Counted from the first letter of the stretch, positions 29,458-54,029 are shown. The stretch: 64,000 nt of DNA from Verrucomicrobia bacterium LW23 (GCA_003054695.1 QAZA01000050.1:186001-250000); one strand, 5' to 3'. Notes: generated by a model not told the origin, from the letters alone. Translations and numbers: made by a program.

Positions 29458-30228
29458 TGCACGACTTAACGCCTTACCCTTGAATCCGGGCGTTCCTTTA
29501 ATCCATCCATTTAATCTTATTTCCGTCATCCCAACCTTCGTTTGGTGAGCCGTTTCCTCCGACGCATCGCGCGCGGCGGACCTTGATGCTTTGCATCCGC
29601 CCCCTCCCCGCTTCAGATTTCTGAGCTTCCGCCCGATACGTGTTTGGTGCGACCTGCCGCCGCCCCACAGTGCCGGCACTGCCATTTTTCATCTTTCCGC
29701 TGATTTTCTTCGCATTTTACCGATATCATGAGATCTGCTCCCGGCTTTCTCTCCCGCATCGTTACCGCGCAGGCGCTTTGCCCTGGCTCCGCAACCCGCC
29801 TCCGCCCACCCTCTATGAGGCGATGGCAAAGGTAACAGCGTAACAGCGCCCCGCGTTGTGCCATCGGGCTACCGGGCGTGCACGTACCCCGGTTTGCCTG
29901 CAACGCAATGGCGGCAACGGCCCGGCACCCCAGCTGTAGCCTTTGAGTTGCCGGCCGGCCCAGGCTGACTGGCCGCAAATGGGCGGCCCCTCCCGTCCGT
30001 TCTTTTCCTCTTTTTCCTCGCATCCCGCTTTTCTATTTTTTGTGACTTTTGCCTCAGGGCCTTATCCCGCGGGGCAATGGCGCATCGCTTCATCACCTCA
30101 CGCTTTCCGTTTCCTGACATCCCTTTCATTCGCTCCCAAGCTTTCCCCCATCGGTCGCGCCAGCCTGTTGTAGTGGCGTTACCAACCTTTTCAGTACTGC
30201 CTTGCTCCCCAACCCTTTGCCGCACTCC
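29443..30228. other. 786-base gene-free region upstream of rho
   Basis: No frame here has a recognisable domain or consistent start. Long C/T-rich runs occur throughout, for example near 29996-30015. A long leader would fit the known autoregulation of rho genes by termination in the leader, but I see no decisive structure. Confidence 0.4.
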
Positions 30229-33200
30229 ATGACTTCCGCTGACGACACCTCCCCCACGGCCCCGCGTAAAGTGACTCGTACCCGCCGCGCCAGCGGCGCC
30301 ACGACGCCCCCGGCCGTACCCACAACGGAAAAAGTGTCCGGCGCCGCCGATGTCAACGGCACCGCGCACCCGGCGTCCGGGTCCGCGGAAACCACCGCCA
30401 AACCTGTCCGCACCCGGGCCTCGCGCGCCACGTCGCGCATCAAGCCCGCAGTCTCCGCGACTACGAAAGCCCCTATGCCTGCAGATACCTCCTTTTCTTC
30501 CCCGGAAACCGCCAGCGCCCCCGCATCCAGCTCCGTCCCGGAGGCGGTGAGCAGCGTAACCGTGCCGCGCACCCGCAAGGCTCCGGTGCGCGCGCGCAAG
30601 GCCGCCACATCCACCGAGGTTCCCGAAACGGCCCCGACGCCCGCGCCCTCCGCCACCACGGAGGCCGCCCCGGCGAAGGCCCCCCGCCGTACCCGCGCTA
30701 AAGCTGCCGCGGAAAGCACTGCGGACGCCGCGCCCGCACCCGAGCCGGCCGCCGGACGCGCACGCCGCATCTCCACGGCCGCCGCGGTTCGCGAGGCCGA
30801 GGCCGCCGCCGCATCCGCCCCCGTGGCCGAGGCCGAGTCGGTCCCCGCCCGCACCACACGCGTCACCCGCCGCAGCAGCACCGCCAAGAAGGAGAGCAAC
30901 GCCGAAGCCCCCGGTTCCGTCGAGCAGCCGGAGCTTCCCATCGCCGTGGAGCAGCGGACCGCGCCCGCCGCCGAAGCCCCGGCCGAGCGCCGCTCCGTCA
31001 GCCGCCGTCGCGACGCTTCGCGCAGTGCCGAGCCCCTCCCCGCCGCCCCCGCGCCTGCCGCGGCGCAGCCGGCGGATCTGGGCCCCAATGCCTACCTGGG
31101 CCGCCCCGTGTCTGCCGATAAATCCCGCGTCTGGCCCCGCCACCGTAACGAGGAAGTGGACTGGACACCTTCCCCGACGTCCGCCGCCAGTGACGCTCCC
31201 TCGCAGGCTACAGCCCCTGCCTCGCAGCCGGATCGCCCGGCCGAGATTGCGCAAACGCCCGCCACGCCGCGCGTTACCTCCGCAGAAGTGCGCGCCGCCG
31301 CGTACGCCAAACCGCAGCGCCCCCCCGCTCCGGCGCCGGGGGCGGATGCAACGGGCCCGGTGGAATCGGCTTCGGCAGTCCCCGCCCCCGCAGCGCCCCT
31401 CTCCACCTCCCCCGGCGCCATGATTATCGAAAGCGCCCCGCGCCAGTTCTTCCGCGCGCCCAGGCACAATCGCCCCGCCCCGGCGGCAGCCGCTACAGCA
31501 TCCGCCACGGCGGAGAGCGCAGCGCCGGCCGCAACGCAGCCCCCCGCCGCGCAGCCCCAGCCGCAGCCCGCGCAGCCGCACACCCAGCATCAGCACGGTA
31601 GTGGCGGCGGCGGACACAACAACGGAGGCGGCAACAGCAATGACTCGCGACAGTTCTTTAAGAAGCAGAAGGGACAGCACGCTACGCGCGAGCATTTTGG
31701 CCACGGACCGCGCGAGGATCGTTTCGGTCGCCAGAACCGCCACGATCGCAACGCCAACCGCCACGGCAATCAGCAGGGCGGCGGCCAGGGTGGCCACGGC
31801 TACGACAAGCACGACCGCCAGGACCGCTTCTCCCGCAAGGATCGCGACCGCAACCAGCAGCACGGCAACGATCGCCACCAAAACGGCCACGCCCATGGCG
31901 GCACAAACAACGGCCACGTTAACGGCCATCATCACGAGGACGCCGCAGTCGCCGCCATCCAGGCCGAACCCGCGATCCCCGCAACGCCCGCCGTGCCCCT
32001 GCCCCCCGGCAAAACGCTGAACCTGCGCGAGCTGCAGCAGATGAATATTGTTGCGCTGCACGAGTTTGCAAAGGAATTCGTCGAGAACTCCCTCAACTTC
32101 AAAAAGCACGACCTCATCTGCGAGATCCTTAAGCGTAACGAAGCCCGCGGCGGCGAGATGATCGGCGAAGGCATCCTGGAGCTCCTGCCCGAAGGCTACG
32201 GCTTCCTGCGCGCCGCCTGCTTCAGCTACGCCACCTGCCCGGAGGACGTCTTCCTGACGCCCCAGCAAGTGCGCCGCTACGGCATCCGCAAGGGCGATCA
32301 CGTCACCGGCCTCGTCCGCGCACCCAAACCTAACGAGAAGTACTTTACCATGATGCGCGTGGACACCATCCACGGCATCCCGGCGGAGGAACCACGCGAA
32401 AAGGCTGTCTTCGACAACCTCACGCCCATCTTCCCCAACCGCCGCATTATCCTCGAGGGCAAGTCGCGCGACGTCTCCATGCGCGTGCTCGATTTGCTTT
32501 GCCCCATCGGCTTCGGCCAGCGCGGCCTCATCATCGCACCGCCGCGCGTCGGCAAAACCATCCTGCTCCAGAAAATCGCCTCCGCGATCATGGAGAACAA
32601 CCCGGACGTCCACCTCATCATGCTGCTCATCGACGAGCGCCCCGAGGAAGTGACCGACATGGAGCGCACCGTTAAAGGCGAGGTCATCTCCTCTACCTTC
32701 GACGAAAGCCCCGAGCGCCACATCCACGTGTGCGAAATGGTGGCCGAACGCGCCAAACGCCTGGTGGAGAACAAGAAAGACGTCGTCATTCTGCTCGACT
32801 CCATCACCCGCCTCAGCCGCGCGTACAACAACATGACGCAGGGCGGACGCACCGGCTCCGGCGGCCTCGACACCAACGCGCTGCAAAAGCCCAAACGCTT
32901 CTTCGGCGCCGCGCGCAACCTGGAGGAAGGCGGCAGCCTCACCATCATCGCCACCGCTCTGGTAGATACCGGCAGTCGCATGGACCAGGTCATTTACGAG
33001 GAGTACAAAGGCACCGGCAACCTCGATATCCAACTCGATCGCTCCCTTGCCGAGCGCCGCATCTTCCCCGCCCTCAACATCAACGCCAGCGGCACCCGCA
33101 AGGATGACGGGCTCTACCATCGCGACGAACTCGACCGCATCAACCTGCTGCGCAGGGCTTTACACCTGTTCACGCCTATAGAAGCGATGGAAGCGCTGAT

Positions 33201-40534: not shown

Positions 40535-41111
40535 GAGAGGCGAATTGGGGGAAAGTTTGCGCGGGGCGGGGGAATCGGCGTGATGCTATATTAGCAGGGG
40601 CGGCAATGTGCCGATAGAATATACACGAACAAGGTCAGTCTTTCGCGACGCCCTTTGAGGCTGGTGTTCGGTAATCCGCTGCAAGGTGCGTTGGGCAAAG
40701 GGGTTGCGCCATATAGCGCAGCCGCGGCGACGGGGCGGGAGGCGAGGTGCCGGGAGGGCTTTGAGATATTTATGCTATGTTATTGCTAATTCGCTATGGA
40801 TTTGCCATTCTTTCCACATCCGCGGACGACTGGCGCATTTCCCTCTGGAACGCATGGGGATAAAAGTGCTTCTGACCGCGGGAGAAAGTCGCCGCAAATT
40901 GCTGTTTCAGAGAGGATTTTGTCGCTTGGGCGGAAAATCTCACAAATTGCAAATTAAAGCATTGACACAGCACATAGCAGCGTCCATTGTAATGGAAGCA
41001 ATCGCCAATACCGCCCCCTCTGCTTCGTCGCGAAAAGCGGAACTCCCCGGTAAGGCCACCCATCAGCCGCATCACGTAACGCCCTCCACTCTTTCACCTT
41101 TCCTACCTTTT
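40535..41111. other. 577-base intergenic region upstream of the Verru_Chthon cassette
   Basis: This region lies between the DUF4031 start (minus) and the first pseudopilin. It is AT-rich in places; a TTGACA at 40963-40968 is a candidate -35 without a convincing -10 at 17 bases. The last 30 bases before the pilin ATG are a C/T tract. No gene is supported. Confidence 0.4.
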
Positions 41112-41600
41112 ATGGTCACCTCTTTTCGCCGTACTGTTTCGCGATACCGCCGCACGCGTGGTTTTACGCTTGTGGAAGTAACCATGGCCGTGGCCATTAT
41201 AGCATTTGCGTTTATCCCGCTGTTCGGCCTGCTGCCGGTGGGATTCAGCGTATCCCGCGAGGCGATGGACATTTCCGTGACGGCGCAGATTGCGCAGCGC
41301 ATGACGACGATTGCGCTGCAGACCGATTTTTCGCAGCTCGACACTCTCCAGACCGCCGGCACTACGCTGTGCGATGACCAGGGCAACTCCACCACGGTCG
41401 CCGGCTCCGGCATCTACCGCGTGGCCTACAATGTCAGCGATACGACCGACCTGCCCGGCAGCGGTGCCACCACCCGCCTCAAGACGGTGACGATTTGCAT
41501 CCTTAATCCGACCTCCCTGCGCACCAGCAACGAAAGCGACCTGATGCTTAACCCCGATACCCGCAAGTTTGTTGTGCTGGTGCCGGACAACGGTCGCTAA
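41112..41600 (+). CDS. Verru_Chthon cassette protein B (pseudopilin-like)
   Basis: A 162-aa protein. After a basic leader comes the prepilin motif G-FTLVEVTMAVAIIAFAFIP, where cleavage after Gly and methylation of Phe are expected and Glu sits at +5. LLPVGFSVSREAMDIS and AQRMTTIALQTDF follow, the pattern of cassette protein B in Verrucomicrobia. It should be processed by a prepilin peptidase and assemble with the other pseudopilin-like members. It is the first gene of the B-C-A-D order; gene C starts 250 bases later on the same strand. Confidence 0.85.
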   Translation: MVTSFRRTVSRYRRTRGFTLVEVTMAVAIIAFAFIPLFGLLPVGFSVSREAMDISVTAQIAQRMTTIALQTDFSQLDTLQTAGTTLCDDQGNSTTVAGSGIYRVAYNVSDTTDLPGSGATTRLKTVTICILNPTSLRTSNESDLMLNPDTRKFVVLVPDNGR

Positions 41601-41612
41601 GATTCCCGCCGC

Positions 41613-41630
41613 CAGGGTGCTCGCACCCTG
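41613..41630 (+). repeat. intercistronic hairpin after cassette gene B
   Basis: CAGGGTG (41613-41619) and CACCCTG (41624-41630) form a perfect seven-pair stem 12 bases after the stop of gene B. No T run follows, so it may stabilise or attenuate the B transcript relative to C-A-D. Confidence 0.5.
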
Positions 41631-41850
41631 CGTGTTGCAGGGCCAGAGCGGAGCTACCGGGCCGGACGTACGCGAAGGGGGGAGGACGGAGAATAACCCA
41701 GGCTCCCTTCTCCTTTTCTCCCGGTCTTTTCTTTCCCCCCATAGCCGTTCTCCCAATCGCCTTTCCCGATTTATCCTGCAGGTGGCCGCCTGGCGTGCAG
41801 TCGGCTGTTTCGCCCTTTCGCTTCGCTCCTCATCCCTCTCCCTCTTCCGT

Positions 41851-43050
41851 ATGAGCAAAAGGCTGACTCCCAGGCAAAAGCAGCATCTGCAACGCCGCAG
41901 CGCGTTCTCGCTGGCCGAGTTGTTGATCTCCGCCACGTTTCTGCTGGTGCTCATCGGTTTTGTTGCCCACCTTACCGGGCAAACGAGCGAAATCTGGCGG
42001 TCGTCCAACGCCAGGATTCGCGCCTTCCAGGACTCCCGCGCGGCCTACGACTCCATGGCCCGCAAGCTCAGCCAGGCCACGCTCAACACGTACAACGAGT
42101 ACTACGACGACCAGAACCGCCCGCGCAGCCAGTTCTACAAGGGCACCAACGTGCAGGGCTTTACGCCGGTTACCTACAGCCGTTACTCGGACCTCCATTT
42201 TGTTACCGGCCAGGCCGCCACGCTGCTGGCCTCCAGCACACCGCCGGTGATTACCCAGACGCAGGCCGTGTTCTTTCAGGCGCCCCTGGGTTACTCCGTG
42301 GATTACCGCCAGCTGGATAGCAGCATGAACGCCTGCGGCTACTTCCTGCAGTTTGCCAATGCGGACTCCACGGTGCCGAACCACGTGAAGCTGACGCCCA
42401 GTTATGTGCCCCGCTACCGCTTCCGCCTGATGGAGCTGATGCAGACAACCGAGCAGTTTGCCGTATACTCCGACCCCGCCGCGACGCCGACGCCCGGCCC
42501 TAACGACTGGTTTACGAAAACCGCTGTATCCAACAGCCGCATTGTGGCCGAGAACGTGATTGCCCTGGTGGTGTTGCCGATGCTTTCGGAGCGCGAGGAC
42601 GTGCCGACCGGTGCGGGCAAGGGCGTCTCTATAGCACCCAACTATTGCTATAATTCCCGCGTCGGCTTTAATCAGGCCACGGATACCAACTGGCCTTCCG
42701 CAACGCCTCCGTTCCCTGGCGATTCCTTTACCCATTACCCGGCCTCCGGCGCGCCCGGCACGGCCTCGCGCCATCACCAGCTGCCGCCGCTGGTGCGCGT
42801 GGTTATGGTGGTGATCGACGAAGCCTCTGCGCTCAAACTGCAGGGCTCGCTCACCACCATACCGCCGGCCATCGATTTCCGATCCCTCGCCCTGTTCAGG
42901 GACGCCTCCAGGCTTCGGGAGGACATCCAGGCGGTGGAAGATATCTGCAACGCCAAACCGGGCAACCTCACCAACAATCGGCTTCGGCTCAACTATCGTG
43001 TCTTTACCAGCGACCTGATCATCCAGGCCGCCAAGTGGTCCAACAAATAG
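41851..43050 (+). CDS. Verru_Chthon cassette protein C (pseudopilin-like)
   Basis: A 399-aa protein with leader RLTPRQKQHLQRRSA, then FSLAELLISATFLLVLIGF (prepilin-type helix with Glu at +5) and GQTSEIWRSSNARIRAFQDSR, which matches the cassette C pattern of a tryptophan-bearing alpha helix after the membrane segment. The long C-terminal domain is rich in aromatic and Pro residues. The ATG at 41851 directly follows the pyrimidine tract CCCTCTCCCTCTTCC. Genes C and A are 43 bases apart. Confidence 0.85.
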   Translation: MSKRLTPRQKQHLQRRSAFSLAELLISATFLLVLIGFVAHLTGQTSEIWRSSNARIRAFQDSRAAYDSMARKLSQATLNTYNEYYDDQNRPRSQFYKGTNVQGFTPVTYSRYSDLHFVTGQAATLLASSTPPVITQTQAVFFQAPLGYSVDYRQLDSSMNACGYFLQFANADSTVPNHVKLTPSYVPRYRFRLMELMQTTEQFAVYSDPAATPTPGPNDWFTKTAVSNSRIVAENVIALVVLPMLSEREDVPTGAGKGVSIAPNYCYNSRVGFNQATDTNWPSATPPFPGDSFTHYPASGAPGTASRHHQLPPLVRVVMVVIDEASALKLQGSLTTIPPAIDFRSLALFRDASRLREDIQAVEDICNAKPGNLTNNRLRLNYRVFTSDLIIQAAKWSNK

Positions 43051-43093
43051 GCGGCGCGGGCAGCCATCCCCTCGCCGCGGGAGATTTCATCGT

Positions 43094-46000
43094 ATGTCCT
43101 TCCTTCGATCTATCCTCGGGTCGTTTCTCTCCAGCCCCCTTCTCCGCCCCCTTGCAGGGCGGCGCGGCAGGCGCGGCGTTACCCTGGTTGTGGTGCTGGG
43201 CATGCTGGCCCTTATGGCCGTGCTGATGATCTCTTACCTCACCAGCGCCTCCACGGAGCTGGCGGCAGCCAAGCGCTATAGCAGCGGGCTGGACGCGCGC
43301 AGCCTTACCGATTCCGCCGTCAACATCGTCAAGGCGCAGATTCAGGACGCGACCAGCCAGCCCAGCCTGGCGTGGGCCTCGCAGCCCGGCATGGTCCGCA
43401 CCTACGACAGCAGCGGTGAGCAGGTGATGGCCTACAAGTTGTACTCCAGCGAGCAATTGCGCGTAACGGGCGCCTTTAACCCGGTCGCCAGCGCCGGCTC
43501 CGAGGTCCCCGCCAACTGGTCCACCCGCAAGAATCTGTTTACCGACCTTAACCGCCCTGTCACGGTCGGCGGCGTCAAACATTACCCGATTATCTACCCC
43601 AGCGCGGTTGCCAGCGGCCCGTCGTCCACCACCGCGATGGACGGTGGCTCTCAGCCGATTGAAGGCTGTTACCTGGATACCGGCAATGGCGCCGTCGCCA
43701 CCACGTCCACGCAGACCAACCCGGTGCCCCTGCCCGTCAAATGGATGTACGTGCTGAAGAACGGCACGGTGGCGGCGATGGACCCCGCCACTGGAAAAGT
43801 GGCCGGCGCCGGCGCGATGCTGCCGGATGGCACGCCCAACATCATCACCGGGCGCATCGCGTTCTGGACGGATGACGAGAGCAGCAAGGTCAACGTCAAC
43901 ACGGCGTCCATCGGCACGTACTGGGAGCGCCCGGTTACCGCGTCGCCCGGCGATCTGTCCGGCATGTCCGACAAGATGCCGGTCCAGAATGAGTTTCAGC
44001 GGTATCCCGGCCATCCGGCGATGACTTCGCTGGGCGTCGTGTTCCCGCAAAAAGCTGCGGAGACACGCCTGGACTACCTGAACAGGATTTACAACATGGT
44101 ACCGCGCGTGGTGCCCGGCGGCAGCAATGGCGGGGAAACCGTTACGGCGGTCAAAAACAACTCCGCGTTGTGGATCGCCCCGGACGGCCAGCGCCTTTAC
44201 GCCTCCGTGGACGATTTCCTCTTCCAGGGCAAGTCCCCGGCGCAGACAGGGACTGGTGCCCGCAAGCCGCACGACGACGTGACGCAAAGCGATATGGAAA
44301 AGGCACGCTTCTTCATCACCACATCCAGCCGCGCGCCGGAGGTGAATATGTGGAACAAGCCGCGCGTTACGCTCTGGCCGCTGCAGGCCCATACGGCGGA
44401 TGTGAGCACGCCGACCGCTTCGACCGAGCGCAACGCCATGGACAAGCTCATCGCGTTCTGCTCCACCATCGGCAACACGCCCTACTACTTTCAGCGCTAT
44501 AACGTCTATTCCGCAGCCACGCCTGCGGTTAAGCCCAGCAGCCAGAGCCCGACGATGGACTGGACGGAGATTCCGCGCAACCAGCAGATTTACGCTTACC
44601 TGCAAAAGCTCACCAGCTCACCCATCCCCGGCCTGGGCGGTCGCCTTGCGGGCCCCGTTGGTGCCAAGTACCCGGAGCGGGTGCGAGATCAGACGCTGAC
44701 GCAGATGTGGGATTACCTGCGCAGCACCATCAATACCTACGCCACCTACTCCACGCCCAACTACTTCTACACTCCCTTCCACAAATCCAGCTTTATTGCC
44801 GCACAGGGGCAGGTTGTGCCGCTGAGCCTGCCAAACGGGACGCGTGGATTTGGCCGCTTCTCCACGGTGCAACAGGTTGCGCTTACGGTGTTTCGCAAAG
44901 ATAAGCGCACCATGCAGAGCGCCACCATTCCGAAACAGGTCATCCCTGGTGATCCCCCCTACACGCTCGATGGCGATGTGAGGACGGGCCCGAACGCGCT
45001 CAGCTTTCCCGCACCGGACCCTGGCGATCCCATTGAGCTTGGCGCGGTGTTTATCCTGCAGCCGTTTTCGGTAACGCCGGGATCACCCCCCTGGACGCAG
45101 AACATGCGTGTTGTTATCGAGGGCGCACGAGGTCTCACCTTTAACGACCAGTACATCTTCAAGGACCGAATGGTAAACAATATCAGCGCCATCAACTCCA
45201 CCATTAACTCGACCCCGTTTGCCGGGATGGAGGAATGGATGCAGAAGCCGGCTCGTGCCCCTAAGGTACTGGGCGAAACAAGTGAAATTAACCCGGAATC
45301 GGAATACTACCCGTTCTTCGCAAACGTGACCCTGCCTGCCCCCGCGATTTCGGGAGTGACGACTCTCTCGCTGGGCGCTGCCGATATCGTCGTCAAAGTG
45401 TACGCTGGGACTACCGGCCCTCTCAACAATGCAGATCTGATCCAGACGATAACGTTCCGGTTTCCGGCAATGAGTAACCTGCCGATGCCGACGGCGACGA
45501 CGCCTACGATGACGTATAACGCAACCACGGGCAAAACAAGCGTTTCTCACCAGAATCACTATACGAGTTTTAACGAGCGACTGAACGTTAACCAATACCC
45601 TGGCCGCTATGGTTATGCGGAGGACAACAAGCATAACCCCCTGCCACTCTTCATTGTTAACGGTGTCAGCACCGCCAACCCTACGGGAGCCGGAGATACC
45701 GTCCGCAGCGTCGAGCTTCGCTACGGAGGTCCCGCGAAAGGAGATGTGCGACTGATCGCCGGCTTAAAGGATGTTCCGCTCGAATACTTTGAGGCCCATG
45801 GGCAAAAGGATGTCCCCAGCAGCGATGGTAAGCTTTTTAGTGATACCGATCCGAAAACGTCCCGTGCTATCCACAGCGTCCGCATCCACTACCCCGGCTC
45901 TGGTGATACAAGCAATCAGAACGGATTCTACGCAGGCACCGGCGTCTCCGGAGACAAGCGCGGCAAGCTGGTGAAGAACGCCGCGTACCGAGATCCTAAC

Positions 46001-47197
46001 CGCGGCAATAACTCCCGCGATGCCCGCATGCCCTTTGCACCTCGCGGCATGACGGAGGCCCTGATGAGCGACGGCGTTACCCTGGGCGACTGGGACAACG
46101 GCCCCGGCAACCAGCCCGACGGCCCCTTCATCAACAAGGGTGACGAAGGCACCGCCAACGTTAGCCAGAGCGGCAGCGGCGCCTACTACGAGACCGGAGG
46201 CTATGTGAACGGCGCCGGCGTAGTGGAGAGCGGAGCCTCCTTCTCCCCCGCCCGCCAGCTCGCCTCGGCCGTTACCTTCGGCTCGCTGCCGTCGTATATC
46301 GACCAGAACGACTCCGCCACCACGCTCGCCCCCGCCTCCAAGCCGTGGCAGACGCTGCTATTCTGCAGAAACCCGCTGGGCGGCGACTCGCATCCCGGAT
46401 TCGGCTCCCCGATTTCCGGCCCGCCTTACGATATCCCGCCCGACCATGCCTTCCTGGATCTCTTCACCATGCCCGTTGTGGAGCCTTATGCGATAAGCGA
46501 GCCCTTCTCCACTGCCGGCAAGGTGAATATGAATTACCAGATTGTGCCCTTTACCTACCTGACCCGCAGCACGGGTATGCGCGCCGTCCTCAAGCCCGTG
46601 GAAATGATGGCCATCCCCTTTGCCGAAGCCGACCGCTACAAGGACAGCAATAAATCGCCGTCCGACTACCGCTACCTGCTCAATCTCAGCGAGACCACGG
46701 GCACGCTGAAGGGCTTTGAGAACCGTTTCTCCAGCGGCGATATCTTCCGATCTGCCTCGGAAATCTGCAGCATTTACCTCGTGCCAGGCACCAGCGCCCC
46801 CACCAACGTGGGTACAGCGGCTCCAATACCGCTGGCCACATACGACAACATGAATGACTGGTGGAAGGGATACACGATGACCGGCGATAATACCCGCGAG
46901 AGCCCGTACAACAGCATCTACCCCCGCGTTACCACCAAATCCAACACCTTTACGGTGCATGTGATGACCCAGGCGCTGAAGAAGAGCCGCAACACGCCGG
47001 TGGACGAGTGGGTGGAAGGTACCGACACGGTTAGCGGCGAGTTCCGTGGGTCCGTACTGATGGAGCGCTACCTCGATCCCAGCTCCGACAATCTTGTACA
47101 GGCGGATGGCCGCACCCCGGCCGGCGAGCTGGATGACAACGCCATGGTCGGCCCCTACAAGTGGCGCGAGATCAACGTGAAGCAGTTTGCGCCGTAA
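43094..47197 (+). CDS. Verru_Chthon cassette protein A (large GspK/PilX-like)
   Basis: A 1367-aa protein. A basic N-terminus and one hydrophobic helix (RGVTLVVVLGMLALMAVLM) are followed by STELAAAKRYSSGLDARSLTDSAV, a pilin-like arrangement comparable to GspK or PilX without a clear Glu at +5. The rest is a very large exported domain with motifs such as GRIAFWTDDESSKVNVNTAS, which resembles the GspK segment containing DESGKIN. GspK caps the type II secretion pseudopilus, so a tip or scaffold role in the cassette is an inference. Length is typical for cassette protein A. It overlaps the possible early start of gene D. Confidence 0.87.
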   Translation: MSFLRSILGSFLSSPLLRPLAGRRGRRGVTLVVVLGMLALMAVLMISYLTSASTELAAAKRYSSGLDARSLTDSAVNIVKAQIQDATSQPSLAWASQPGMVRTYDSSGEQVMAYKLYSSEQLRVTGAFNPVASAGSEVPANWSTRKNLFTDLNRPVTVGGVKHYPIIYPSAVASGPSSTTAMDGGSQPIEGCYLDTGNGAVATTSTQTNPVPLPVKWMYVLKNGTVAAMDPATGKVAGAGAMLPDGTPNIITGRIAFWTDDESSKVNVNTASIGTYWERPVTASPGDLSGMSDKMPVQNEFQRYPGHPAMTSLGVVFPQKAAETRLDYLNRIYNMVPRVVPGGSNGGETVTAVKNNSALWIAPDGQRLYASVDDFLFQGKSPAQTGTGARKPHDDVTQSDMEKARFFITTSSRAPEVNMWNKPRVTLWPLQAHTADVSTPTASTERNAMDKLIAFCSTIGNTPYYFQRYNVYSAATPAVKPSSQSPTMDWTEIPRNQQIYAYLQKLTSSPIPGLGGRLAGPVGAKYPERVRDQTLTQMWDYLRSTINTYATYSTPNYFYTPFHKSSFIAAQGQVVPLSLPNGTRGFGRFSTVQQVALTVFRKDKRTMQSATIPKQVIPGDPPYTLDGDVRTGPNALSFPAPDPGDPIELGAVFILQPFSVTPGSPPWTQNMRVVIEGARGLTFNDQYIFKDRMVNNISAINSTINSTPFAGMEEWMQKPARAPKVLGETSEINPESEYYPFFANVTLPAPAISGVTTLSLGAADIVVKVYAGTTGPLNNADLIQTITFRFPAMSNLPMPTATTPTMTYNATTGKTSVSHQNHYTSFNERLNVNQYPGRYGYAEDNKHNPLPLFIVNGVSTANPTGAGDTVRSVELRYGGPAKGDVRLIAGLKDVPLEYFEAHGQKDVPSSDGKLFSDTDPKTSRAIHSVRIHYPGSGDTSNQNGFYAGTGVSGDKRGKLVKNAAYRDPNRGNNSRDARMPFAPRGMTEALMSDGVTLGDWDNGPGNQPDGPFINKGDEGTANVSQSGSGAYYETGGYVNGAGVVESGASFSPARQLASAVTFGSLPSYIDQNDSATTLAPASKPWQTLLFCRNPLGGDSHPGFGSPISGPPYDIPPDHAFLDLFTMPVVEPYAISEPFSTAGKVNMNYQIVPFTYLTRSTGMRAVLKPVEMMAIPFAEADRYKDSNKSPSDYRYLLNLSETTGTLKGFENRFSSGDIFRSASEICSIYLVPGTSAPTNVGTAAPIPLATYDNMNDWWKGYTMTGDNTRESPYNSIYPRVTTKSNTFTVHVMTQALKKSRNTPVDEWVEGTDTVSGEFRGSVLMERYLDPSSDNLVQADGRTPAGELDDNAMVGPYKWREINVKQFAP

Positions 47198-47219
47198 CGC
47201 AATCGGATACCCCCCGAAG

Positions 47220-47927
47220 ATGAAGAACTGCCGCCCCTTGCACCACGTTACCGCTATGCTGCTCCCCATCCCCTCCTCCCCCGCATCCGCCCGGCGCCGC
47301 GCCACGGCCGGCTTCTCGCTGATGGAGCTGGTGGCGGTGATGGCCATTATGGCGGTGCTGGCCACCATCACCATCCCCGTCGTGGTGCCGATGATGCGCT
47401 CGTCCAGCCTCAACTCCGGCGCCGCCATGCTGGTGGACGAGTTTAACCTGGCCCGGCAAACGGCCATGACCGAGAACCGGGACGTGGAAGTGCGTATCTA
47501 CCGCACGGGCTCCGCATCCAACCCTGCGGACCTGCAGTATCGCGGCTTCCGCAGCCTTATCAAGGAGAGCGACGAGCCCTTGCAGTGGAAGGCGCTGACG
47601 CGTGTGCGTTACCTGCCCGATCCGGTCATCTTCTCGGCCGACCCGAATTTCTCCACACTGCTGGATGCCGGCAACGCCTCCCGCTCCGGGCTCACTTCCT
47701 CCTCGGAGACGCTGCCCAACGCGGCGACGCCCACGCCTTACATCAGCTTCCTGTTCCGCCCCACGGGCGGCACCAATCTGTCGCCGGTGGATCCGCCCGT
47801 CGGCAACTGGTTCCTCACGCTGCACAGCTCGGCCGATCCCCTCAATGCGACGACCGGCCTGCCCAACAACTACTTCACCTGCCAGGTGGAGCCCGTGACG
47901 GGACGAATCCGCACCTACCGGCCGTAG
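47220..47927 (+). CDS. Verru_Chthon cassette protein D (pseudopilin-like)
   Basis: A 235-aa protein. A basic leader (SARRRATAG) precedes FSLMELVAVMAIMAVLATI, a textbook prepilin helix with Glu at +5, then MLVDEFNLARQTAMTENRDVE, which is the GspH-like pattern of cassette protein D. I chose the ATG at 47220; another ATG at 47256 would give a shorter leader. It begins 22 bases after the stop of gene A, completing the B-C-A-D unit. The following gene is metabolic, so the operon probably ends here. Confidence 0.83.
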   Translation: MKNCRPLHHVTAMLLPIPSSPASARRRATAGFSLMELVAVMAIMAVLATITIPVVVPMMRSSSLNSGAAMLVDEFNLARQTAMTENRDVEVRIYRTGSASNPADLQYRGFRSLIKESDEPLQWKALTRVRYLPDPVIFSADPNFSTLLDAGNASRSGLTSSSETLPNAATPTPYISFLFRPTGGTNLSPVDPPVGNWFLTLHSSADPLNATTGLPNNYFTCQVEPVTGRIRTYRP

Positions 47928-48087: not shown

Positions 48088-49104
48088 ATGAGCCCCACTC
48101 TCACATATAAAGCAGCCTATTTTCGCTCTCCGGAGTCGGTCGTCCTCAAGGACACCACCCCCGGCGCTTTGCCGTCCACCGATGCCATGCTGCGCGTGGA
48201 CGCCTGCGGCATCTGCGGCACCGACATCAACGCCATCATGCGCGGCGCGGCGGAGGACACGCCCGTAGGCCACGAGGTGGCCGGGCGCGTCGTAGCCGCA
48301 GATGGCTCCGTCACCCATCGCCACGCCGTGCTGGAGAGCTCCAGTGCGTGCGGCCGCTGCATATCGTGCCGCAACGGGCAGCCGGAGTTGTGTCGCGACG
48401 TGAAGACTTTTTTCGCGCGGCCCTTCTTTGGAATTGCGGAGTACATGCCCGCGCCGGAGATCTCCGTGCTGGATTATGAGGGCATGAGCCCCGAAGTGGC
48501 GACGCTTTCCGAGCCGCTGGCCGTGGCGATCGACCTGGCCTCGACGGCGGAGATCACGCCTCAAAGCGTGGTGCTTGTCGCCGGGCTGGGGCCGATTGGC
48601 CTGATGGCGGTGCGCCTGGCCAAACTGGCCGGGGCAGCGTACATCTATGCCTCTACCTACCGCGGCCGCGACAAACGCAACGCGCTGGCGCAGGAGTTTG
48701 GCGCCGACGAGCTGATTTACGAGGACGAGACGCCGCTGGCCGATCGCAAGCTCGATCCCGCGCCGGACGTGATCCTGAGCACCGTTCCGCCCACCGCCAT
48801 TGGCGCATGCGTGGGGCCGGCGGCCAGAGGCGCGGTTATTGTCTACATCGGCGTCGGCCACGGCGACACCGATCATATCCATTTGCCGGCCAACGCCTTC
48901 CACTTCAAAAAGCTGCAGCTTCGCAGCTCCTTTGCATCCCCGGCGCTTCGCACCCCGCTGGCGCTGGATCTGCTGCGCACGCGGCGGGTGGACGGCGAGA
49001 AACTGATTACCCACCGCTACCCCCTGGCCGACGCCGGCGAGGCGATTCGTGTTGCCTGTCGCGATAAAGCGAATGCAATTAAGGTTGTCGTTGTCAACAA
49101 TTAG
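48088..49104 (+). CDS. zinc-dependent alcohol/sorbitol dehydrogenase-like oxidoreductase
   Basis: A 338-aa medium-chain dehydrogenase. Catalytic zinc ligands lie in DACGICGTDIN and VGHEVAGRV; the structural zinc site SACGRCISCRNGQPELC keeps four Cys. The Rossmann loop is AGLGPIGLMAVRL. It should oxidise an alcohol or polyol with NAD(P). It is followed after 18 bases by a Gfo/Idh/MocA gene, a pairing common in sugar and inositol catabolism. The substrate cannot be told from sequence. Confidence 0.88.
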   Translation: MSPTLTYKAAYFRSPESVVLKDTTPGALPSTDAMLRVDACGICGTDINAIMRGAAEDTPVGHEVAGRVVAADGSVTHRHAVLESSSACGRCISCRNGQPELCRDVKTFFARPFFGIAEYMPAPEISVLDYEGMSPEVATLSEPLAVAIDLASTAEITPQSVVLVAGLGPIGLMAVRLAKLAGAAYIYASTYRGRDKRNALAQEFGADELIYEDETPLADRKLDPAPDVILSTVPPTAIGACVGPAARGAVIVYIGVGHGDTDHIHLPANAFHFKKLQLRSSFASPALRTPLALDLLRTRRVDGEKLITHRYPLADAGEAIRVACRDKANAIKVVVVNN

Positions 49105-49122: not shown

Positions 49123-50229
49123 ATGTATCCCACGCCCGTCTTCGGCCTCATAGGCACCGGCCACATTGGCCGCATTCATCTCAAGGCGCTCCAAACCGCC
49201 GGACTCACCATCGGCGCCATCGCGGATCCCTCCGCCGACGCGCTGGCCGCCGCAACGCGCTTTGCACCCAACGCCAGGCAATACAGCGATTACAAAGAAC
49301 TGCTAGCCGATCCCGACGTTACCGCAGTTAACATTTGCACCATCAACAGCTTACACTTCCCCATCCTCAAAGCGGCTGTCGCTGCGGGCAAACACGTCTT
49401 TTGCGAAAAGACGATGACCGTGAGCACCGCCGAAGCGCTGGAAGCGGCCTCCCTGCGCCCCGCGCCCGGCCAGGTGGTGCAGATCGGCTACATGAAGCGC
49501 TGCTTCCCCGCCAGCGTGTGGGCCAGGGAGAACATGGAACGCATCGGCTACCCCATCACCGCCACGGTGCGCAGCTTCCAGGGAGGCCTGGTCAGCGACA
49601 AGATTTTTGACTCCCCCGACTGGCGCCCCGCCGCGGATGGCACGCCCAGCCGCACGCGCCGCTTTGCGAGCGGCGGCATGCTGAACATGGCCGGCAGCCA
49701 CATGCTGGACATGACGGCCTGGCTGCTGGGCGATCCCGCCTCCGTCACCTGCCGCACCTGGGCCCCCACAGGCTACGACGCCGACCTGCACACGCACGGC
49801 CTTTTTCTGATGAAGGGTGGCACGATTGTGCACTTTGAGGCCGCGCTGCCCCACTTTAGCAAAACCGGGGAGTACGGCAACGGCTGGGAGGAAGTCATCC
49901 AGATTAACGGCACGCTGGGCCGCATGGAAATTGTCTACCCGCTGTGGGATCGCCCCGCCGATTTCTCCGCCAGGGCACGCATCTATATCGAAGCAGACAA
50001 AGCCTGGGAGCAGCCCGACTTTCCGCATGCCGACGCGTTTATGCTGGAGCTGGAAGCCTTTGCGGCGGCCTGCAACTCCGGCGGCGCCGAGCCCGCACCT
50101 ACCGAGCTGATCTCCTGGCAGCGCCCCGGCATCCGCGAAGGCGCTGTGGTCGATTGCTGGATCGACACCTGCTACGCGAGCGCCGCAGCCGGCGGCAAAA
50201 CTCTGGACGTACCCCTGCCGCCCGCTTAG
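49123..50229 (+). CDS. Gfo/Idh/MocA family oxidoreductase
   Basis: A 368-aa protein. The N-terminal Rossmann fold has FGLIGTGHIGRIHLKAL; the family's EKP motif appears as CEKTMTVST with Thr in place of Pro; GYMKRCFPASVW and the C-terminal beta sheet (GGMLNMAGSHMLDMTAWLLG) complete the fold. These enzymes oxidise or reduce sugars and cyclitols with NAD(P). It is very likely co-transcribed with the alcohol dehydrogenase gene upstream (18-base gap), and the pair probably acts on one carbohydrate. Confidence 0.9.
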   Translation: MYPTPVFGLIGTGHIGRIHLKALQTAGLTIGAIADPSADALAAATRFAPNARQYSDYKELLADPDVTAVNICTINSLHFPILKAAVAAGKHVFCEKTMTVSTAEALEAASLRPAPGQVVQIGYMKRCFPASVWARENMERIGYPITATVRSFQGGLVSDKIFDSPDWRPAADGTPSRTRRFASGGMLNMAGSHMLDMTAWLLGDPASVTCRTWAPTGYDADLHTHGLFLMKGGTIVHFEAALPHFSKTGEYGNGWEEVIQINGTLGRMEIVYPLWDRPADFSARARIYIEADKAWEQPDFPHADAFMLELEAFAAACNSGGAEPAPTELISWQRPGIREGAVVDCWIDTCYASAAAGGKTLDVPLPPA

Positions 50230-50325
50230 CAGCGGCGCGCCCTGGTGGGGGAGATTATGCCTTTCAACCGCAGTACGAGCAACACGAGAACATCACGCAA
50301 CAGCCACACGCACGCACCCACCCCC

Positions 50326-52701
50326 ATGAAACACATCTCCCTCACCACCAGGCAGTTGCGCAGTCTCTGCGCGGCTATGGTGCTGATGACCGCCGGCGCG
50401 CTCGCCCCGGCGGCCATCGCCACGGGGCATGCGCAGGATAAGCCTGCCGCCCCTGTCGCCGCCACCGCCAACACCGCCCCCGCGGAGGCACCCAAGGCCG
50501 AAGCCAAGGCCCAAGCCAAGCCCGCCGACGCCCCCGCGCCTGCCCCCGCAGCACCCGGCAAGCCGCTTCTGGAGAACGGCGACATGAGCGCCGACTCCGA
50601 CAAGGACGGATGGCCTGACGGCTGGCCCAAACCCAAGGAAGGGCGCTGGATCACCGACGAAGGCAATCCGTTCATCCGTTTCTCCAGCACGACGCCCGGC
50701 GAGATGGTGATGATGTACCGCGAGTTTAACGTGCCGGAAGGCACAGAGGCCGTCGAGATCTCCTGGCGCCAGCGCATCACTGGCCTCACCGTCGGCAGCA
50801 AGGCGTGGTTCGACGCCCGCATCATCGCCGAGTTTACCGACGCCGAGCGCAAAAAGGTGGAAGGCCCTCAGCCCCGCATGCCCTACGCCCGTAAGGATAC
50901 CGCCGGCTGGGAAGAAAAGACCGTGCAGGCCCTCGTGCCCGAAGGCGCGAAGCTGCTGAAATTCATGCCCTCGCTCTTTCAGGTGGAGAGCGGCACGTTT
51001 GACATCGACGACGTGGTGATCCGCCCGATCGACGCCACCGCCCTGCGCGAGGAAAACAAGAAGGCCGAGGAAGAGAAAGCCGCCTCGCTGGCCAAAAACG
51101 CCGCCACCCGCCAGGAAAAGGCCGCCAAGAATCTCGGCGCCGACGGCTCCATCATCCCCAACGGCAATATGGAGGCCGACAGCAAAGGCAAGAGCTGGCC
51201 CGACGGCTGGGGTCACCCCAAAACCGGCAGCTATGAGAAGGAGGAAGGCAACAGCTTCATCCGCATCACCGCGCCCGAGCCGGACAAGATGAACATCATC
51301 TACCAGACCTACGATCTGCCCCCCGGCATCCAGGCGCTGGAGCTGAAATTCCGCACCCGCGTCACCAACCTCAAGAAGGGCAAGATGCCCTGGTTTGACG
51401 CCCGCATTATCACGGAGTTCAAGGACGCCGCCGGCAAGAAGATCTCCCAGGGTGGCGCGCCCAACATGGGTAGCAACACCAAGGGCTGGGTGGAAAAGAG
51501 CTCCATGTTCCTGGTGCCCGAAGGCGCTGTCTCCATCGTCATCATGCCCTCGCTGTTTCAGGTAACCAGCGGCACCATGGACCTTGACGACGTGACGCTG
51601 AAGGCGATCGACCCCGCCCCCATCTACGCCAAGAAGGAAGCCGACAAGAAGGCCGCGGAAGCCCGCTACGTGCCGCCGGAGGAGCCGAAGAAAGACAAGT
51701 GGCCCAAGATGCTCCGCGTTGTCGGCAACAAGGTGCTGGATTCCGACGACAAGGAAGTATGGCTGCAGGGCGTCAACGCCGGCGGTCTGGAGACTCTGCC
51801 GCACGACATGCAGGTCATCAAGTCGGTCGTCGTGGCCATTGACGAGTGGAAATCCAACTGCGTGCGCCTGCCCATCAACGAGACGTTCTGGTACGGCAAA
51901 AGCCCCTACCAGAAGGATGGCGGCAAGGAGTATCGCGACAAGATCGACCAGATTGTAACGCTGTGCGGCAACCGCGGCGCCTACCTCGTGCTGGATCTCC
52001 ACCGCTTCCGCGCCCCCAAGCAGGAGCACGCCGACTTTTGGAAAGACGCGGCCACGCACTACAAGGATAACCCCGTCGTGCTGTTCGACATCTTTAACGA
52101 GCCCTACGCCATTAGCTGGGAGATCTGGCAGAAAGGCGGCTTCGTCTCCACCAACAAGACGGGCGTGGACGAATCGCAATTCATCTCCGCCGAGGAGCGC
52201 AAGAAGCTGGAAGGCTTCGAGTCCATCGGCATGCAGGGCCTGATTGACGCCGTGCGTTCCACGGGCGCCAAGAACATCATCATCGCCGGCGGCATCTTCT
52301 GGTGCAACGACCTCACCGGCGTGCTGAAGGGCTACGCGCTGGACGACAAGGGCGGCAACGGCATCATGTACAGCTGGCACACCTACCACTGGCACCCGGG
52401 CTGGGAGCGCATCCCGCCGATCGCCGAGAAGTACCCGATCTTTCTGGGCGAAGTGGGCGCATCGCCAAAAGGCGTCATGGGCTTTATCCCGGAGAAGGAT
52501 CAGGAGGATCCCTACACCTTCTCGCCGGACATGCTCGGCTTTATCCAGAAATACAAGATTCACTGGACCGGCTGGTGCTTCCACCCCAAAGCCGCACCGT
52601 GCATGATCGAAGACTGGACCTACAAGCCCACCCCCTACTGGGGTGAGTTTGCCAAGCGCGCGCTGGGAGGCGAAGCGTTTGAGATGAAGAAGATGCGGTA
52701 A
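50326..52701 (+). CDS. exported GH5-type glycosidase with duplicated N-terminal binding module
   Basis: A 791-aa protein. A signal peptide (about residues 1-37, cleavage after HAQ) is followed by an Ala/Pro/Lys linker. Two homologous beta-sandwich modules follow (about 78-240 and 285-435); both contain WPDGW, GN-FIR, WFDARII-EF and a final LFQV-SGT-D-DDV. They are separated by a Lys/Glu/Ala-rich helical linker. The catalytic domain (about 465-785) has GH5 features: [12 protein letters not shown]-like helix, general acid Glu in FDIFNEPYA and nucleophile Glu in IFLGEVGAS. It probably cleaves a beta-glucan or mannan outside the cytoplasm. An ATG at 50245 upstream would place the signal peptide internally and is rejected. 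Confidence 0.87.
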
Positions 52702-52818
52702 GTATGCGCGATCTCCAGGCGCTTTGCCAGGCGCACCGCAAACGCACTGCAAGCGCGCTGCCAGCAGACTGCATCGCACTCCAGCGCAATGCCTTATGTG
52801 TTGCGCTCTATCCCGCAC

Positions 52819-52860
52819 ACAGGCGCCGGGCCCGCAAAGGTCCGGCGCCTGTTGTGTTGT
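52819..52860 (+). terminator. hairpin terminator after the GH5 gene
   Basis: ACAGGCGCCGG (52819-52829) pairs perfectly with CCGGCGCCTGT (52842-52852), followed by TGTGTTGT, a T-rich but interrupted tail. It lies 118 bases after the GH5 stop. Confidence 0.65.
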
Positions 52861-52970
52861 GTGGGGTTGACTCTCCCCCATCGATTGCGCAAAACAGTGG
52901 GGTCGCAGCGTCTGCCAGGTGTACCTCTTCGCGGTTCACAACCTTCGAATCGAAAGCACCCCGCCGCCCC

Positions 52971-54029
52971 ATGTCCAACCTCTCCCCCCTCAGCATCCAG
53001 ATTAAGGACGAAAAGCGCGCCTACTACCCGGGCGACGAGATTACCGGCACCGTCATCGCCAAGCCGCAGGCCGATACCATCTGCCGCAAGCTTACCATCG
53101 CGCTGAACTGGCGCACCGGCGGCATGGGCAATGTGGACGAGGGCAAACCACAGGGAGAGATCACTCTCTTCTCCGGCACCCTGCGCGCCGGCGTGCCCCA
53201 GGAGTTTCCCTTCAGCCTTACCGTACCGCCCGGGCCGCTGACCTACCACGGCAACATCGTCTACGTCAACTGGTACCTGCACGCCCAGGCGGACGTGCCA
53301 TGGGCGTTCGACCCTACAGTCCGCCGTGAGTTTATTCTGGCCTCGCCACAAGATCCGGTACCGCTGGACCTGGGCCCCAGCTACAAGCCACCCAAACACC
53401 CGTCATCCAACGAGCCCACGCCCTGGTGGCTGATCATCCTGCTCATCCTCGCCGCGGCCGTCGCCACGTGGTTTTTTCCGTGCTGCCTCTTTATCATCAT
53501 CCCGGCGGTGATATTCTGGGCCATACCGGAGTACCGTAAGTGGTTGCAGGTTAAGAAGCTGGGCAAGCGCGTGCTGCACATCGAGCCGCAGCAGGCCTAT
53601 GCGGGCGAGTCGATCGAAGTCAGCTTTCAGTACCAGGCCACCTCCAGGGTGGATCTGGAGTTTATCTCCGCCGAGCTGCTGGGCCAGGAGCGCGTGGAAA
53701 GCGGCTCGGGCAGCAATCGCAAAACGCACAAGCACAAGATCTTCGGCAATGAGGAGTTCCTGCTGCGCGACGCCATTGTAACCCCCGGCATCCCCGGCTC
53801 GCACCGTGCCACCCTGTGGTTTCCCAAGGATGCCGCGCCCACCTTTGCCGCCAGCAACAACTGGGTGGAGTGGAGCGTCATCTTTCGCCTGAAAGTGCGC
53901 GGCTACGGTGTGTGGGAGGAGACACATCCAGTCACCCTCTGGCCCACCCCCGGCGTCGAGCATTTCAAATCCCATCGCGATCCCGACGATTTCGATGAGC
54001 ACGAGGACACTGACGACGAAGACGTGTAG
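52971..54029 (+). CDS. arrestin-like membrane protein
   Basis: A 352-aa protein. The N-terminal ~140 residues show an arrestin-type beta-sandwich: IKDEKRAYYPGDEITGTVI, FPFSLTVPPGPLTYHG and WYLHAQADVPWA. Two adjacent hydrophobic helices at about residues 153-186 (PWWLIILLILAAAVATWFF and LFIIIPAVIFWAI) are inserted, then a second beta-rich half begins IEPQQAYAGESIEVSF, and the C-terminus is acidic (DEHEDTDDEDV). Eukaryotic arrestins bind receptors; bacterial arrestin-fold proteins such as Spo0M have unclear roles. The call rests on pattern, not motif identity. The ATG at 52971 is chosen because earlier frame sequence contains the terminator. Confidence 0.6.
   Translation: MSNLSPLSIQIKDEKRAYYPGDEITGTVIAKPQADTICRKLTIALNWRTGGMGNVDEGKPQGEITLFSGTLRAGVPQEFPFSLTVPPGPLTYHGNIVYVNWYLHAQADVPWAFDPTVRREFILASPQDPVPLDLGPSYKPPKHPSSNEPTPWWLIILLILAAAVATWFFPCCLFIIIPAVIFWAIPEYRKWLQVKKLGKRVLHIEPQQAYAGESIEVSFQYQATSRVDLEFISAELLGQERVESGSGSNRKTHKHKIFGNEEFLLRDAIVTPGIPGSHRATLWFPKDAAPTFAASNNWVEWSVIFRLKVRGYGVWEETHPVTLWPTPGVEHFKSHRDPDDFDEHEDTDDEDV

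Follow-up and report, generated by a model that had tools for sequence, protein, structure and literature searches.

How is a set of genes to be read when its families have names but no function? The question is raised by a stretch of 64,000 nucleotides (hereafter the window; G000:C50:186001-250000) from Verrucomicrobia bacterium LW23, whose genome (6.6 Mb, 56 contigs) is 95% complete. At 41112-47927 the window carries four open genes, all on the + strand and in the order B-C-A-D, and the first-pass annotation had taken these for an intact, strand-consistent Verru_Chthon set, a reading confirmed by the four + strand ORFs and their NCBIfam matches. Protein B (41112..41600, with an alternative start possible at 40686) has its cleavage site between TR and GFTLVE at nt 41160, and is followed after 250 bp by protein C (41851..43050), with a site between S and AFSLAE. 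Protein A (43094..47197), which begins 43 bp further on, is 1367 amino acids long, with a site between RR and GVTLVV and no glutamate at position 5 (Glu5). Protein D starts at either 47220 or 47256, less than 60 bp beyond A, and ends at 47927; its site lies between A and GFSLME. A scan for sigma-70 promoters and terminators over the cassette gave no signal clearly above that of shuffled sequences.

The cassette is the same four-gene set as the NCBIfam families Verru_Chthon A-D (TIGR02600, TIGR02598, TIGR02599 and TIGR02596, respectively). Protein A matches its model over positions 1-1296 of 1296 with 1126.5 bits (cut-off 332.3), C reaches 268.9 bits (cut-off 256.5) and D 170.5 bits (cut-off 70), all three passing. 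The best match of B is to TIGR02598 (E 8.4e-11) but its 42.3 bits fall below the cut-off of 51.4, and B is therefore termed a divergent relative of that family rather than a strict member. Outside its own family, D also matches GspH models, which give it its top NCBIfam score. Pfam detects the N-methylation motif alone in B and D, plus a weak GspH match in D. NCBIfam assigns none of the families a function, just as had been noted at first pass, and no paper naming Verru_Chthon families A-D was found in the literature searched.

Profile comparison with components of the type II secretion system (T2SS) offers a way out of this impasse. Using hhalign, the four proteins were compared with GspG, H, I, J and K from Klebsiella, Paracoccus, Bradyrhizobium, Kozakia and the genome's own T2SS (a pair of E. 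coli plasmid stretches, pO157 being the source of one, was excluded as unsuitable for reference). Expressed as E-values of single comparisons, the best partners were GspK for A (3e-6, the next being 4e-3), GspI for B (7.5e-8), GspJ for C (9.8e-8) and GspH for D (9e-13). The signal is confined to the N-terminal helix and the stretch that follows it, and once the helix is removed only the D–GspH pair retains a weak signal. For B it is restricted to the helix itself, such that the pairing with GspI, its best partner, draws on the helix, the gene order and the family set, whilst GspH is the best-scoring candidate counterpart of D. Protein A lacks Glu5, as does GspK, and B, C and D keep it, although the search pattern for these three demanded Glu or Asp at position 5 and their Glu5 score is thus partly by construction. 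The variant order D-B-C-A, seen both in relatives and among the genome's own divergent cassettes, corresponds to the canonical H-I-J-K. A sequence search of solved structures returned nothing for A or B, and matched C and D to pilin N-terminal regions alone. The earlier parts list had also included a major-like pseudopilin. This was not borne out: each of the four has a minor pseudopilin as its partner, D scoring better against GspH than against GspG (2e-10), and no GspG adjoins the named cassettes.

Predicted structures add to this picture for C and A. The AF2 model of the window C protein (pLDDT 88.8), compared with known structures by VIA, gave Z-scores of 10.7 to 9a1f_S, 10.4 to EpsJ and 10.3 and 10.2 to XcpW, the next unrelated structure scoring 5.6; across GspJ-type structures (XcpJ/XcpW, EpsJ, GspJ) the range was 9.7-10.7. 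At the level of the model, this confirms a GspJ fold for C. Because the window A protein was too long for the predictor, a homologue (L138; 1186 amino acids, 38% identical to window A, from a locus with the same B-C-A-D order) was folded in its place using 61 sequences (pLDDT 87.8). VIA matched this model to GspK (3ci0_K, Z 10.2, 255 of 280 residues) and to XcpX (Z 10.0 and 9.8), with the next unrelated structure at 3.5. These three GspK structures were the sole matches above Z 3.5, with alignments of 232-255 residues spread across model residues 30-1186, so A is modelled as a GspK that large insertions break up. With Foldseek by itself the A model could not be told from noise (GspK ranked 23rd), whereas VIA made the distinction. 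The first-pass description of A as GspK/PilX-like thus holds for GspK, whose fold appears complete in the model around a large insertion, but not for PilX, which is far smaller.

The main insertion, a predicted beta-sandwich region that breaks up the GspK fold, lies at 44819..45902 (+) in the window and at residues 486-830 in L138, where it resembles Ig/C2-type sandwiches weakly (Z 3.5 or less). It is much the most variable part of the protein: conservation is 1.47 bits compared with 2.4-2.5 in the remainder, and among the A paralogues of the same genome, which are 30-49% identical, the fraction of the top residue is 0.31 compared with 0.50. Taking these results together with gene order and family membership, we consider it very likely that the four genes encode a whole GspHIJK pseudopilus tip complex.

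A count of cassette copies, proposed at first pass and carried out here, reveals extensive amplification. The genome encodes 17 A proteins above the TIGR02600 cut-off, 15 C and 15 D proteins above theirs, 22 B proteins (that of the window included) and around 19 further cassettes of divergent type, partly in D-B-C-A order. Several of the divergent cassettes are followed by a gene in the same direction for a protein of 220-360 amino acids with a signal-like N-terminus and, in the one tested, no Pfam match (L042:14261-15037, L043:14627-15298, L044:4381-5208, L045:14868-15953, L046:4554-5345, L041:12578-13492 and L038:4538-5221); this small protein is possibly a fifth tip component or a chaperone. 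Within the phylum, eight of 388 sampled genomes pass the A cut-off, with 17 (this genome), 21, 12, 7, 4, 4, 2 and 2 loci each, and 208 of the 388 match A with E-values of 0.001 or below, for the most part in its first 60 residues. In public species genomes an alignment query found 439 stretches encoding relatives, of which 79 were kept, all from Verrucomicrobiota (Chthoniobacter flavus, for example), unlike a single-sequence scan of genome contigs, which confirmed no relative.

Complete loci with a single copy of each gene number 61 across this genome and other species, and all but one fit four recurrent orders: ABCD (20), BCAD (18), BCDA (16) and DBCA (6). The four-gene set is no chance arrangement, because the same set recurs both within the genome and in other species. 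Cassettes also evolve as units. Mantel correlations among the A, B, C and D distances over the 61 loci are 0.73-0.82 (none of 500 permutations exceeded 0.13), values that partly reflect species history. Within the genome itself (eight loci), correlations are seen for A-B (r 0.49, P 0.008), A-C (r 0.56, P 0.007) and C-D (r 0.50, P 0.03), the A-D value of 0.27 being non-significant. Some loci have A alone and others C or D alone. Lone A genes, with neither B, C or D nor sugar enzymes adjacent, are found at C11:369508, C56:218492, C17:14205 and C18:14057, and their neighbours include NusB, MutS and chlorite dismutase.

Which machine might such tips serve? The cassette had been described at first pass as a dedicated tip with no ATPase or secretin of its own that would have to borrow a core machine, and this proved right. 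A prepilin peptidase, the lack of which had been named at first pass as grounds for rejecting the idea, is encoded once in the genome (G000:C45:68028-68378) and also in each of the seven relatives that carry A. One complete T2SS operon, GspD-E-F-G-H-I-J-K in that order, lies elsewhere (locus L051; G000:C17, ~72-82 kb). GspG is found above cut-off once in this genome and one to three times in each of the seven relatives, and no GspD, F or G occurs within 10 kb of any of the 79 named cassette loci. The imbalance between many tip cassettes and one GspG suggests a single machine served by many exchangeable tips. In such a scheme B (GspI), C (GspJ) and A (GspK) would be processed by the peptidase to form an I-J-K tip, which D (GspH) would connect to a shaft built from GspG, the one major pseudopilin that all tips share, with shaft and tip driven by the one complete T2SS. 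The minor pseudopilins of the T2SS are known to form the pseudopilus tip, with GspK at the top and GspH at the base, and the tip has been described as critical for substrate recognition (PMC6211770).

The genome also encodes a type IV pilus machine (loci L050, L053 and L055), comprising a PilB-like pair, PilC, a PilM-like protein, two PilQ-like secretins and two PilT-like ATPases. This opens up a different role, in which the cassettes cap pili that bind extracellular polysaccharide, either for adhesion or for pulling it to the outer membrane or periplasm for internal digestion; pilus-aided polysaccharide uptake has reportedly been proposed for Planctomycetes. PilM is present in all eight genomes with A, and in one relative (L105) a PilB/GspE-like pair lies ~3 kb from a cassette. 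The type IVa minor pilins FimU-PilV-PilW-PilX, with PilY1, belong to the same superfamily and follow the same four-part logic. However, A is predicted to have the whole GspK fold, unlike the small PilX, the highest-scoring family for D other than its own is GspH, the cassette contains no pilus core genes, and PilY1 (PF05567) gave no match either in the four cassette proteins or in those neighbours of the window cassette that were scanned. All eight genomes have both machines, GspG included. On balance we regard pilus capping as unlikely, and use of the shared T2SS in preference to the pilus machine as reasonably probable.

In the window, D is followed on the same strand by genes for a zinc-type alcohol/polyol dehydrogenase (48088..49104; PF08240, PF00107), a Gfo/Idh/MocA oxidoreductase (49123..50229; PF01408), a GH5 (cellulase-family) enzyme (50245..52701; PF00150, E 1.2e-29) whose N-terminus resembles a secretion signal and whose catalytic domain is preceded by two repeats, and an arrestin-like protein (52704-54029; PF00339, PF02752), unusual in a bacterium. 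The gaps are 160, 18, 15 and 2 bp in turn, and these four genes possibly form one transcription unit with the cassette. The GH5 enzyme, although only third in line after D, with the dehydrogenase first, is a candidate substrate of the window tip. Very long antisense ORFs lie opposite coding genes at 50293-52881 (-, 862 amino acids) and 29869-33120 (-, 1083 amino acids); these are probably an effect of high G+C content.

Across the genome, a polysaccharide-active enzyme or binding protein stands directly beside the cassette at ten of 15 core loci (those with B and/or C) compared with two of 20 random loci of two genes each from the same genome (Fisher P 0.0007), a comparison made with home-made gene calls and unblinded classification; one of the two qualifying random loci itself adjoins a divergent cassette. 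Adding the four loci with A alone (L011, L017, L024 and L025), which have no adjacent polysaccharide enzyme, gives ten of 19 (P 0.005). The ten neighbours are of the types CE4, GH28, GH16, GH95, GH2, polysaccharide lyase, GH42, BNR/sortilin (GH74-like), CBM4/9 and GH78. Of 37 cassettes, 12 have a LacI regulator no more than 3 kb away, where 2.9 would be expected (P 2e-4). The commonest immediate neighbours in other species, for which there was no control set, are PATR repeats (8 of 107), LacI, GH130, GH2, GH16, GH28, acetyl xylan esterase and PEP-CTERM proteins. Two further families of large proteins recur near cassettes of this genome: giant exoproteins with a haemagglutinin-type TPS domain, scanned in the first of L014:1010-5755 and L020:14890-19929, and secreted proteins of 1100-1600 amino acids at eight loci (L022:6294-9710, L058:9616-14361 and L061:9816-13709, for example), with NHL repeats in the one scanned.

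We propose that the cassettes encode alternative, locus-specific pseudopilus tips that are loaded onto a shared T2SS, an explanation that fits best overall and to which we give an even chance of being correct. Each tip would probably dock secreted enzymes or surface proteins encoded at its own locus, since a variable insertion enlarges A, a predicted GspK, and the cassettes are found in loci that deal with different polysaccharides; which sugar is present would decide how the shared machine is re-tipped. Docking of substrate by the inserted domain of A and induction by sugar are inferred. That the tips choose substrates locus by locus is a tentative suggestion, rather less than evenly probable, and it is slightly more doubtful again that a single T2SS serves, by exchange of tips, as dozens of dedicated secretion channels, the variable domain of A selecting the enzymes of its own locus and regulation of the cassettes picking the tip. 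The literature hints at a link to polysaccharides: in Cytophaga hutchinsonii, T2SS genes are needed for cellulose use and adhesion, and T2SS mutants grow poorly on cellulose (PMC5553014).

The tips could instead be interchangeable and lack substrate specificity, acting as initiation complexes that boost or time T2SS assembly when a sugar locus is switched on. Minor pseudopilins GspI, J and K prime pseudopilus assembly, and the association of cassette loci with LacI-type regulators would suit such a role. Against this, the insertion in A is far more variable than the GspK core and the paralogues of a single genome have diverged more than dosage needs, which makes initiation alone fairly improbable. 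Inflation of a gene family with no specific role, its mobile or decaying paralogues kept by drift, might account for the incomplete loci and for copy numbers of 2 to 21 across relatives, but is very improbable given that no internal stops interrupt the A genes listed, that invariant motifs are kept across 61 sequences from many species, that 60 of 61 complete sets fall into four orders and that the four proteins show strongly correlated distances.

Returning to locus-specific tips on a shared T2SS, the closest known counterpart is the GspH-I-J-K tip itself (3ci0; Xcp, 5vtm and 6utu; Eps, 2ret and 3cfi), whose four minor pseudopilins pair one to one with the cassette proteins. The cassettes differ from it in lying outside any T2SS operon, in their many copies per genome and in having no GspG, whilst A, at 1200-1450 amino acids, dwarfs the ~300 of GspK, and C is about twice as long as GspJ. 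In another verrucomicrobial bacterium, Verruconatronum alginivorum, 67 pulG-like copies are present, one pseudopilin gene is over-expressed on alginate and a T2SS has been proposed to export enzymes (PMC13274419); these amplified pseudopilins are, however, PulG-like (major-type) and do not form a four-gene HIJK tip.

Substrate choice by the T2SS is a long-standing problem. In the present case, it seems, the machine is held fixed and the tip varied up to 17-21 times per genome, and with probable cargo adjoining the cassettes, tip swaps could directly test whether the tip sets substrate choice. Four families that were previously names only are also given a likely function. In the polysaccharide loci of Bacteroidota, SusC/SusD form a surface module repeated in each sugar locus and tied to its enzymes and regulators. 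The proteins are unrelated, SusC/SusD being uptake transporters and not a pseudopilus tip, but the analogy suggests that the cassette may be a polysaccharide-locus module of the Verrucomicrobiota, with a role comparable to that of SusC/D in Bacteroidota.
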